NCBI RefSeq assembly: GCF_000024725.1
Contig: NC_013960.1
Span: forward strand, 1,014,261-1,078,260
DNA length: 64,000 bases
From: Nitrosococcus halophilus Nc 4
Lineage (GTDB): Bacteria; Pseudomonadota; Gammaproteobacteria; Nitrosococcales; Nitrosococcaceae
Reading direction: 5' to 3'
The notes beneath the pieces were generated by a model that saw only the letters and a list, made by a program, of their open reading frames with translations, was not told the DNA's origin and made no database searches. Both the position numbers and the translations under genes were made by a program. This document shows positions 23,513 to 25,569 of this stretch, one piece after another (the stretch's first letter is position 1; every line of letters starts with the position of its first letter).

Positions 23513-23878
23513 TTAATATCGGCTTAACCAATCCATGATTAGTCTGTAAGAAATAAATAATACTAATCCCGTGGTTAAGATAAACAACAATCCAAGTACT
23601 AAAAACCAAAATCGATATAAGCGAACTTTAATTCGAGCAAACCACCCGTCTTCTGGCTCTATTTTTCTCGGAATATTTTGAAAATTCGATATCAATACAT
23701 AGATGCAGAGAAACCATACAAAGCCCACAATAGAAGGTATCAATAGGATATCTTCATCACGGGAGCTTGAGCTGACCGCTATAGTTACCGCGACAACTAA
23801 TAAAGCAATTGAAATGATTAGCGCTGGCCACTTCAATGGACTGATAAAAATGGCTAGTTTGTTTAGTTTTTCAATCAT
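23513..23878 (-). CDS. Small inner-membrane protein (121 aa)
   Basis: A 121-residue protein with three strong hydrophobic segments: about 17-36 (WPALIISIALLVVAVTIAV), 45-63 (LLIPSIVGFVWFLCIYVLI) and 92-114 (FWFLVLGLLFILTTGLVLFI). Between the second and third is a charged loop with RKIEPEDGW. No family is recognised. It lies about 430 bp from the first double-glycine-leader peptide and points away from it. A link to that peptide pair as exporter accessory or immunity protein is conceivable, but rests on nearness alone. Confidence 0.6.
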   Translation of the reverse strand: MIEKLNKLAIFISPLKWPALIISIALLVVAVTIAVSSSSRDEDILLIPSIVGFVWFLCIYVLISNFQNIPRKIEPEDGWFARIKVRLYRFWFLVLGLLFILTTGLVLFISYRLIMDWLSRY

Positions 23879-24309
23879 TTATAGCATCTCCCTAAAATGA
23901 GGGCGGGGTGGCAATCAGGCGTTAAACTTTGATCCTTTATTCTCTCGAGTACTTATAAATTTTGCGCTTGATGTTCGAGCAAAGACAAGGTGGGTGCGAG
24001 CCCTGATCCGAGTCTCACTCTCCTTGATGTTATTCCGGCTTCCCATTGCACTACGTTATTGAGAAGCCAACATAGTGGTACTGCTTTGTTTTCTGAAAGG
24101 CAACTTTTTAATAGCATAGGGGTGTCAACAGATTCATTGCTTTCCCTATAAAAAAAATTGCAATTCAGAAAGTTAAATTTTAAAGCGGAGAAGCTGGCAT
24201 ACTGGTTGCTCCTGATCTTATTAAGAGCGGGCAATAGCTTTAAAGGCGAGAGCCAAAGTATTGCGCTTGATTGAACAGCTTTAATGTTCACCGATTAGGA
24301 GGACAAATC

Positions 24310-24540
24310 ATGACTCATTTGGTAATCAAAGATCTAGAGAGGAACGAAGCACTTGATAAAAAAGCAATGGCCCTTGCTATCAAAGGCGGTAAGGGTAGAG
24401 CGTCTAGCATTATCTATCCCCGTCCGGGACCCACGTTTCCTGAGCCAGGGCCTACCTTTCCTGGACCGACATTCCCCGATCCAGGGCCCACATTTCCCCG
24501 TCCGGGACCCACGTTCCCTAATCCCGGACCCATTTTTTGA
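24310..24540 (+). CDS. Double-glycine-leader peptide with Pro-rich repeat core
   Basis: A 76-residue peptide starting at ATG 24310, 7 nt after AGGAGGA. An in-frame ATG 39 nt earlier lacks a ribosome site. The first 27 residues form a leader (MTHLVIKDLERNEALDKKAM, then ALAIKGG) ending in Gly-Gly, the pattern cut by C39-peptidase ABC exporters. The remaining 49 residues hold tandem units of the form P-x-P-G-P-T-F: five heptads with x = R, E, D, R, N (the last ends PIF) and one shortened PGPTF unit. The DNA repeats in 21-bp steps. The leader closely matches that of the next gene. It is inferred to be an exported peptide, possibly a RiPP or microcin-like product; no modifying enzyme is adjacent. 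Confidence 0.7.
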   Translation: MTHLVIKDLERNEALDKKAMALAIKGGKGRASSIIYPRPGPTFPEPGPTFPGPTFPDPGPTFPRPGPTFPNPGPIF

Positions 24541-24601
24541 TTTTAATTAGAGAACTGATGTTTTGCTCTATTCACCCCTATCAAACGAGGAGGATACGGC
24601 A

Positions 24602-24805
24602 ATGACATACTTAATTGTTAAGGATTTAGAAAGGCACGAGGAACTTGATAACAAGACTATGGCCAGCATGCGGGGAGGGTCTCTCGCCATAGGCGGCCTG
24701 GTGGGAGGGATAACCGCGGCGGCGTTGGGCGAGAAAGTCGGCGAGACAGCCGCCAAACTCTGGCTTCACTATGGGGAAGGCAAGGAATGGGAGGACCTTC
24801 CTTGA
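24602..24805 (+). CDS. Double-glycine-leader peptide, Gly/Ala-rich core
   Basis: A 67-residue peptide starting at ATG 24602 with a strong GAGGAGGA site 8 nt upstream. The leader (residues 1-26) runs MTYLIVKDLERHEELD, then NKTMASMRGG, sharing the K-D-L-E-R-x-E-x-L-D-x-K-x-M-A pattern with the gene 61 bp upstream. The core of 41 residues is different: SLAIGGLVGGITAAALG with GxxxG-type motifs, like class II bacteriocins, then an amphipathic stretch and an acidic end (GKEWEDLP). A strong terminator follows. The pair looks like a duplicated leader with swapped cores. Function is inferred only. Confidence 0.7.
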   Translation: MTYLIVKDLERHEELDNKTMASMRGGSLAIGGLVGGITAAALGEKVGETAAKLWLHYGEGKEWEDLP

Positions 24806-24828
24806 TATTCATTCCTACGAAAAATCTG

Positions 24829-24870
24829 ATCGAAAAAAGCCCTGTTTCTTTGAACGGGGCTTTTTTCGAT
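24829..24870. terminator. Strong palindromic terminator after the peptide pair
   Basis: ATCGAAAAAAGCCC (24829-24842) is the exact inverse of GGGCTTTTTTCGAT (24857-24870), with a 14-nt loop. The A and T runs on both sides make it a bidirectional Rho-independent terminator. Confidence 0.9.
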
Positions 24871-24951
24871 CATGGTCAACAGTTGGGTAATTTTCGTGAT
24901 GTTTTGATAAAGTAAGGCCAGCACTGTACAGGGCATGATGCTGGAGGAGGG

Positions 24952-25569
24952 GTGTTGCAGTCAAATTCTATTCCAACGCTTATTGATCTGATCCGCCATG
25001 GTGAGCCGGTGGGAGGGCGCCGTTACCGAGGGCATCTGGATGACCCCCTGAGTGAAAAGGGTTGGTCCCAAATGCGGGCTGCTGTCGGCGAGCATTGTCC
25101 TTGGGATCGGATCATTAGTTCTCCTCTCAAGCGCTGTGCGGAATTTGCTTATGAACTTAGCCAGCGCCAGGGGCGACCTTTGCAATTGGAGGAACGGTTA
25201 AAAGAGATTAGTTTTGGCGCCTGGGAAGGGTACACTGCCGCTGAAGTCATGGCACGGGAGACCGAGGCTCTCCGTCGCTTTTATGAAGATCCTGTACGGC
25301 ATACGCCGCCGGGCGCGGAACCCCTTTTGAAATTTCGAGATCGGGTTATTGCCGCTTGGGAAGAATTGCTGAGCCGCCATAGTGGAGAGCATTTGCTGGT
25401 GGTTGCCCACGCGGGAGCGATGCGGATGGTGATACGCCATGTGTTGGGTATGCCCCTAGAAACCATCTTTCGTATTCATGTTCCCAATGCTGGCATCAGC
25501 CGGATTCAAATCGGGGGTAATGGCCCAAGAGCGGGGTCGCAACTGATATTTCATGGGGCCAGTCTTTAG
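24952..25569 (+). CDS. Histidine phosphatase family, alpha-ribazole phosphatase-like
   Basis: A 205-residue phosphoglycerate-mutase-like phosphatase. The catalytic LIRHGEP motif (about 12-18) supplies the phosphohistidine. SSPLKRC, GAWEGY and VVAHAGAMRM give the other conserved residues. The length and the HGEPVGG…YRG opening are typical of CobC, which removes phosphate from alpha-ribazole phosphate in cobalamin assembly. The B12-riboswitch/btuB unit 1 kb downstream supports this, though other small-molecule phosphatases look alike. The start is GTG 24952 or TTG 24955; the GGAGGAGG site fits the TTG better. Confidence 0.8.
   Translation: MLQSNSIPTLIDLIRHGEPVGGRRYRGHLDDPLSEKGWSQMRAAVGEHCPWDRIISSPLKRCAEFAYELSQRQGRPLQLEERLKEISFGAWEGYTAAEVMARETEALRRFYEDPVRHTPPGAEPLLKFRDRVIAAWEELLSRHSGEHLLVVAHAGAMRMVIRHVLGMPLETIFRIHVPNAGISRIQIGGNGPRAGSQLIFHGASL

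Follow-up and report, generated by a model that had tools for sequence, protein, structure and literature searches.

The adjacent genes P1 and P2 of Nitrosococcus halophilus Nc 4 probably form an operon that encodes orphan substrates for a dedicated type I exporter with its own peptidase domain. This reading, which was reached from sequence comparison, is given a probability of about 0.7; the value refers to export alone and not to the role of the cores, and cleavage of P1 and P2 by the exporter is a predicted step. The result supports the central claim of the original prediction, that one leader family serves to export different peptides through machinery located elsewhere, with 16 leader matches (E ≤ 0.01) and a distant C39 ABC exporter found in this genome (denoted G000). 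Unlabelled coordinates refer to the window, the whole 64,000-nucleotide stretch that was analysed.

Organization of the P1–P2 unit

P1 and P2, arranged head to tail, probably constitute a two-gene operon. The features of the region are as follows.

24310–24540, + strand: P1, 76 amino acids, MTHLVIKDLERNEALDKKAMALAIKGG (leader) followed by KGRASSIIYPRPGPTFPEPGPTFPGPTFPDPGPTFPRPGPTFPNPGPIF (core)
24310–24390, + strand: P1 double-glycine leader, 27 residues
24391–24540, + strand: P1 core and stop, 49 residues, 35% Pro, Cys-free
24418–24537, + strand: six P1 repeat units, PRPGPTF PEPGPTF PGPTF PDPGPTF PRPGPTF PNPGPIF
24602–24805, + strand: P2, 67 amino acids, MTYLIVKDLERHEELDNKTMASMRGG (leader) followed by SLAIGGLVGGITAAALGEKVGETAAKLWLHYGEGKEWEDLP (core)
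24602–24679, + strand: P2 double-glycine leader, 26 residues
24680–24805, + strand: P2 core and stop, 41 residues, 34% Gly+Ala, net charge −3, Cys-free
24297–24302, + strand: P1 ribosome-binding site AGGAGG, 7 bases upstream of the ATG
24587–24593, + strand: P2 ribosome-binding site GAGGAGG, 8 bases upstream of the ATG
24824–24876, + strand: intrinsic terminator hairpin closing the P1–P2 unit, from folding, z = −8.4
24195–24210, + strand: sigma54-type −24/−12 box TGGCATACTGGTTGCT, 115 bases upstream of the P1 start
23513–23878, − strand: gene for a 121-residue membrane protein, oriented divergently from P1; the product may be a partner or an immunity protein

Most elements of this layout had been proposed from the sequence and are confirmed here. 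The two leaders, of 27 and 26 residues, follow a common pattern that ends in Gly-Gly, and an HMM built without P1 and P2 ranks both at the top (see below). Strong ribosome-binding sites precede both starts, and a single terminator closes the unit: the hairpin folds at −33.1 kcal/mol, and none of 200 shuffled sequences folds as well. This hairpin is missed by a simple terminator scan, and the same scan gives no sigma70-type promoter in 24000–24960. No third gene lies ahead of the terminator. The claim of five P-x-P-G-P-T-F heptads plus a short PGPTF unit in the P1 core holds, and the 21 bp DNA repeat is among the periods (36 and 21 bp) reported by TRF for the array. The P2 core, which starts SLAIGGLVGGITAAAL, is Gly/Ala-rich as described; GxxxG is present in P2 and absent from P1. 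The two cores are unrelated to each other and neither contains cysteine, in agreement with the view of unlike cores under one leader. AlphaFold modelling of P2 alone gives a single long helix with low confidence (mean pLDDT 65, pTM 0.22), and the model was not used.

Coding status and evolution of the P1 repeat

Pairwise comparison of the P1 units gives 80 base differences, distributed 8/11/61 over codon positions 1/2/3, and 52 synonymous and 14 non-synonymous codon differences. The non-synonymous differences are confined to the x position and to the T/I position, the latter because the last unit has Ile. The excess of synonymous over non-synonymous differences (52:14) argues that the repeat is translated and conserved. 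A second member of the genus, G002, has both genes, adjoining and intact. Relative to this orthologue the P2 core shows eight synonymous and no non-synonymous codon changes and the P2 leader four synonymous and two non-synonymous changes, and P1 has six units here versus two in G002 (PRPGPTF-PNPGPIF). From these codon patterns the P1 repeat is judged to be translated and kept, with changes of length between species.

Beyond these two genomes there was no convincing match to the P1 core. Weak P1 matches at E ≤ 0.01 occur in 19 other genomes of the class, and a wider spread of the repeat was rejected after inspection of one frame from each of eight of these 19, all of which are proline-rich or biased and leaderless. 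Among the 148 leader peptides recruited at exporter loci (see below) a single core exceeds 15% Pro (L179), and it is unlike P1. A BLAST search of plasmid records with the low-complexity filter on gave no match to either peptide, and a plasmid home for the pair was discarded on this ground. The two same-genus genomes that lack P1–P2 (loci L187 and L188) carry different genes upstream of the histidine phosphatase gene, presumably coaD-like and ferredoxin-like by inspection; the neighbourhood differs and neither genome offers a clean empty site.

The leader family

The leaders of P1 and P2 show the hallmarks of double-glycine leaders: about 15–30 residues, conserved hydrophobic and acidic positions and a Gly-Gly end. 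Their likeness to one another is detectable in whole-genome searches (E = 0.0012–0.0018), and either peptide used as query retrieves further members of the family from this genome. The consensus is roughly M-x-x-[LI]-x-[IV]-x-D-L-x5-L-D-x3-M-x4/5-G-G. With a profile of 17 sequences and a threshold of E ≤ 0.01, this genome and G002 give 16 leader matches each, and the two other genomes of the genus give none; across the order (63 genomes) the profile adds only G056, with a single weak match that contains an internal stop. In G002 two leaders lack the second glycine and a third peptide is truncated.

All 16 peptides here and 15 of the 16 in G002 were inspected. The cores of 22 of 30 family peptides (15 from each genome) are 22–32% Asn/Gln, and several are encoded by gene pairs. 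The exceptions to this composition are P1 and P2, one Arg-rich peptide encoded close to the exporter, and a small number of others. None of these 30 cores, P1 and P2 included, contains cysteine, and cysteine is found in some leader-family cores of other bacteria. The cysteine-crosslinked RiPPs (lanthipeptides, sactipeptides and disulfide microcins) were set aside because the cores lack Cys. In NCBIfam P1 and P2 have no match at E ≤ 10, and six sister peptides reach a best E of 0.015, under the cut-off; P1, P2 and the sister peptides have no Pfam match above cut-off. Assignment to the modelled RiPP or bacteriocin leader families (NHLP, Nif11 and others) was likewise rejected, all curated models scoring below cut-off.

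The Asn/Gln-rich paralogous leader peptides (loci L019, L022, L023, L025, L041 and L049) carry motifs such as NNVANFG and NTNTQNQ and map to contig C2 of this genome at about 158–161 kb, 813 kb, 2.05–2.07 Mb and 3.116 Mb, some of them paired. They are candidates for functional amyloids. Elsewhere in the class, L098 (G265:C122:1267-1335) combines a family leader with a proline-rich core, LTPPTPPAPPGGPIPIPYPN, in a genome without a close exporter.

The exporter and its gene cluster

The absence of an adjacent exporter, as originally described, is upheld: only two C39 peptidase domains were found genome-wide, both outside the window, one in an ABC exporter and the other in a stand-alone FapD-like enzyme. 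The whole-genome search for related leaders and C39 transporters that had been proposed thus yielded, besides the 16 leader matches, the following candidate.

G000:C2:845242-848286: exporter with double cNMP-binding, C39 and ABC parts, 1016 residues, about 190 kb from P1–P2

The protein comprises two cyclic nucleotide-binding domains, a C39 domain spanning approximately residues 301–428, an ABC membrane domain and an ATPase. Residues Gln306, Cys312, His385 and Asp401, which are taken to be the catalytic residues of the C39 domain, are all present. This domain aligns with solved C39 domains, over nearly its full length with 7n87, 4ry2 and 4s0f (annotated 'ABC-type bacteriocin transporter' and presumably PCAT1), with Cys, His and Asp in register; 7n87 has Ala at the position of the catalytic Cys, and ComA chains also match. 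These solved exporters are not known to have a double cNMP-binding N-terminus, and they act in Gram-positive bacteria.

Adjoining the exporter gene are genes for a rotamase, an HlyD protein, an FHA protein, an outer-membrane channel, a PP2C phosphatase and two sigma54 activators. The HlyD model match is under the cut-off, as is a further match of the rotamase to TIGR04500, a family putatively involved in peptide maturation. Both activators contain Sigma54_activat domains and one also contains an FHA domain. Some 7–11 kb past the exporter lie a Ser/Thr kinase, a VWA-FHA protein and a leader peptide. The regulatory genes have the following positions.

L021:13025-14362: FHA-sigma54 activator
L021:1167-1958: PP2C phosphatase
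L020:8768-10057: Ser/Thr kinase

Together these three suggest phospho-threonine control of peptide export.

The full-length exporter is present in two of four members of the genus, the same two that have leaders, and the other two show just matches to the ABC part at about 30% identity. In G002 the exporter frame (L060:1501-4545) is broken by shifted frames and stops, which may reflect decay of the system or a faulty assembly. The leader–exporter pairing is not clean, because P1 and P2 are intact in that same genome.

The second C39 peptidase, which is FapD/FilB-like, belongs to a Fap-like locus (L018:5835-9595); by inspection, an apparent outer-membrane protein is encoded beside it, together with apparent secreted proteins that carry Sec signals.

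Linkage of the leaders to the exporter

The exporter occurs at 71% identity or more in three of 369 genomes of the class (G000, G256 and G223), and leaders at E ≤ 0.001 occur in four (the same three and G265, which has a leader match without an exporter match of that kind). Excluding this genome from the estimate, because it supplied most of the leader profile, both of the two exporter genomes fall within the three leader genomes among 368, with a chance probability of about 4 × 10−5.

Adjacency was assessed at exporter loci taken as the best 80 of 271 stretches encoding a relative of the exporter in a scan of 84,980 species' genomes. These best 80 are mostly from Paraburkholderia, Caballeronia and Noviherbaspirillum, and also from Nitrococcus, Aromatoleum and others. 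Paraburkholderia xenovorans LB400 (locus L141) is one relative that has the cluster. A leader HMM for related genomes had been suggested; in the version that omitted P1, P2 and their orthologues, it places the same kind of leader (at least 25 bits) in the flanks, within 10 kb of the exporter, at 72 of the best 80 loci, giving 148 leaders, and the remaining eight have no leader of 25 bits in the fetched flanks. An earlier HMM that included P1 and P2 gave 155 leaders at 71 of these best 80 loci; four of its nine leaderless loci are contigs under 16 kb. An HMM of the 148 leaders scored P1 at 31.9 bits and P2 at 28.7 bits among 1578 window frames, with the next frame at 7.8, a test that is not wholly independent because the 148 had been collected for their similarity to leaders from this genus; the adjacency is independent. 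Reversed proteins reached 9.9 bits at most. No leader hit of 12 bits or more was obtained in 27 control loci (130,043 bases), of which 26 contain ABC or C39 transporters of other kinds and one, L067, holds the weak G056 match.

The association has limits. Leader matches are lacking in 53 of the 56 class genomes that have an exporter match at E ≤ 1 × 10−110, including all seven with a full-length exporter at 35–37% identity, and the link is therefore limited to close exporters. Nine exporter loci (two of the close type and seven at 35–37% identity) showed no leader in flanks that extend no further than about 1.5 kb and are too short to be informative. In this genome P1–P2 is not adjacent to the exporter, and the nearest leader gene, 833962, is 11 kb from it. 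Three leader genes (158–161 kb) lie 10–14 kb from the FapD-like C39 peptidase, with no leader nearer to the exporter here.

Sigma54-type boxes

The box upstream of P1 matches ten of 12 positions of what is taken to be the sigma54 −24/−12 consensus, a score reached by 1.6% of the controls (610 stretches, each 400 bases long). Its counterpart in G002 scores nine of 12 and lies 117 bases upstream of the P1 start. Judged by spacing, 12 of the 16 leader genes here are first in their operons and four are second genes. A box of at least 9/12 occurs within 400 bases of ten of these 12 operon-first genes (7.9% of the 610 controls), and the 12 are not 12 independent events because many are paralogues. 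Nine of the ten boxes lie at 98–115 bases and one at 63; genes 833962 and 2069025 score below nine within 400 bases. The first genes of the Asn/Gln-rich paralogue loci have a sigma54-like box upstream, with the exception of 2069025. In other bacteria a box of at least 10/12 within 250 bases precedes 82 of the 148 leader genes, a total that counts second genes as well; 2.1% of 4320 random stretches reach this score, and all 82 boxes sit 56–104 bases upstream. Given these boxes and the pair of sigma54 activators encoded beside the exporter, the simplest reading would be a sigma54-controlled regulon that includes P1–P2.

Proposed mechanism and role of the cores

Transcription would start from the sigma54 promoter at 24195–24210, driven by the activators of the exporter cluster, as the boxes and genes suggest. 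Both precursors would then be translated, in keeping with their codon conservation. The leader is predicted, from its linkage to the exporter and from the C39 residues, to dock on the exporter C39 domain and to be cut after Gly-Gly, and the cores would leave through the ABC part, HlyD and the outer-membrane channel. The leader would thus act as a common address and the cores would be interchangeable, with the number of P1 repeats free to change. The role favoured for the cores outside the cell is at the cell surface or in the matrix, by analogy with Synechococcus EbfG peptides, and it is given not quite an even chance of being right.

The main rival to a surface or matrix role is a microcin-like bacteriocin unit, in which P2 would be membrane-active, P1 its partner and the 121-residue protein the immunity protein. 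This reading concerns the role of the cores, is compatible with export and is considered unlikely. Class II microcins combine a CvaB-type exporter carrying C39, a Gly-Gly leader and a small core, and the use of such leaders and exporters by microcins counts in its favour, as do the GxxxG-rich hydrophobic stretch of P2 and the 121-residue membrane gene, which within the genus is found only with P1–P2 (two of four genomes) and beside them in both. The product of that gene gives weak matches to DUF3995 (below cut-off) and to the PADLOC '2TM effector' (E = 0.012). However, P1 lacks GxxxG, unlike a partner in a two-peptide bacteriocin, and fits no class known to the authors; the candidate immunity gene is divergent and outside the operon; neither peptide has a Pfam or NCBIfam match above cut-off; and the Asn/Gln-rich cores that predominate in the two genomes (22 of 30) are unlike bacteriocins. 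The unit also departs from class II microcins in that the exporter is not adjacent, the operon has no immunity gene and one core is a proline repeat. A class IIb two-peptide bacteriocin was rejected because GxxxG occurs in P2 alone and the operon lacks an immunity gene. Proline-rich antimicrobial peptides have an Arg/Pro-rich cationic core that acts inside bacteria; the P1 core is 35% Pro, with a net charge of +2 over 49 residues. A signalling role, with the peptides perceived by the producing cell or by its neighbours, would accord with small peptides behind sigma54-like boxes and with the kinase and phosphatase genes near the exporter, but a signal would not usually be as long as these cores (41 and 49 residues) or vary in repeat number, and this role appears improbable.

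Two further alternatives bear on export and on coding. Recognition of the leader by the stand-alone FapD-like peptidase instead of the ABC exporter is suggested by the finding of only these two C39 domains genome-wide and by the three leader genes 10–14 kb away. It is quite improbable: the enzyme matches the FapD and FilB models (below their cut-offs), its immediate neighbours seem by inspection to be Sec-exported and none has the leader, and elsewhere the leaders adjoin the ABC exporter. That the P1 repeat is a chance low-complexity frame without a product is scarcely credible. Biased frames are common, as the eight inspected among the 19 class genomes with weak P1 matches illustrate, but the third-position bias, the synonymous excess, the leader, the ribosome-binding site and the conservation in G002 all argue against it. 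Export of both cores by the ABC exporter is preferred.

Relation to known systems

Among the cyanobacterial long-type C39 clusters described by Wang et al. (2011; PMC3140520), those of groups I, II and VI have an exporter with an additional N-terminal CAP_ED part, which is cyclic-nucleotide-binding-like, before C39 and ABC, together with HlyD and a rotamase-domain SurA, and their Gly-Gly precursors have little-conserved cores. The present exporter is similar by make-up, joining cNMP-binding, C39 and ABC parts in one protein accompanied by HlyD and a rotamase. The system differs in its proteobacterial hosts, its sigma54-like boxes and activators, and its FHA proteins, kinase and phosphatase; the outer-membrane channel and the FHA proteins are additions, the leaders have no above-cut-off match in Pfam or NCBIfam, and the precursors are scattered over the genome. 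According to two papers (PMC4997328, PMC9981879), EbfG1–4 of Synechococcus elongatus are four small Gly-Gly proteins that are secreted with the help of the C39 exporter PteB. Mature EbfG1 starts TTYNPPSYPYPSYPK and is proline-rich, as is the P1 core; unlike P1–P2, the ebfG genes adjoin pteB. A biofilm role is shown in those papers for EbfG, whereas the role suggested for P1 and P2 is drawn by analogy and not from a sequence relation. An Azoarcus paper (PMC3262810) was dismissed as unrelated.

Many-core Gly-Gly leaders and the cyanobacterial long-type C39 clusters were already known, and the apparently new element is a proteobacterial leader family linked to sigma54. No description of such a family was found in searches of open-access papers, which is weak evidence of novelty.

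Implications

In this organism many small peptides of unrelated sequence probably share a single secretion machine. A more specific picture, put forward tentatively and somewhat doubtful as a whole, is a proteobacterial regulon under sigma54, FHA and kinase control, in which a C39 exporter with cyclic-nucleotide domains uses one leader for unrelated, mostly Asn/Gln-rich candidate matrix or amyloid cores; P1 would be a rapidly changing matrix peptide whose repeat number tunes surface properties. If the proposed export is correct, the leader HMM and the sigma54 box together would predict the substrates of the exporter, distant ones included, and scattered unannotated small frames would become a testable regulon. 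Relatives of the exporter are many, with 271 stretches in the scan of 84,980 species' genomes, and the system would be the proteobacterial equivalent of EbfG/PteB in cyanobacteria.
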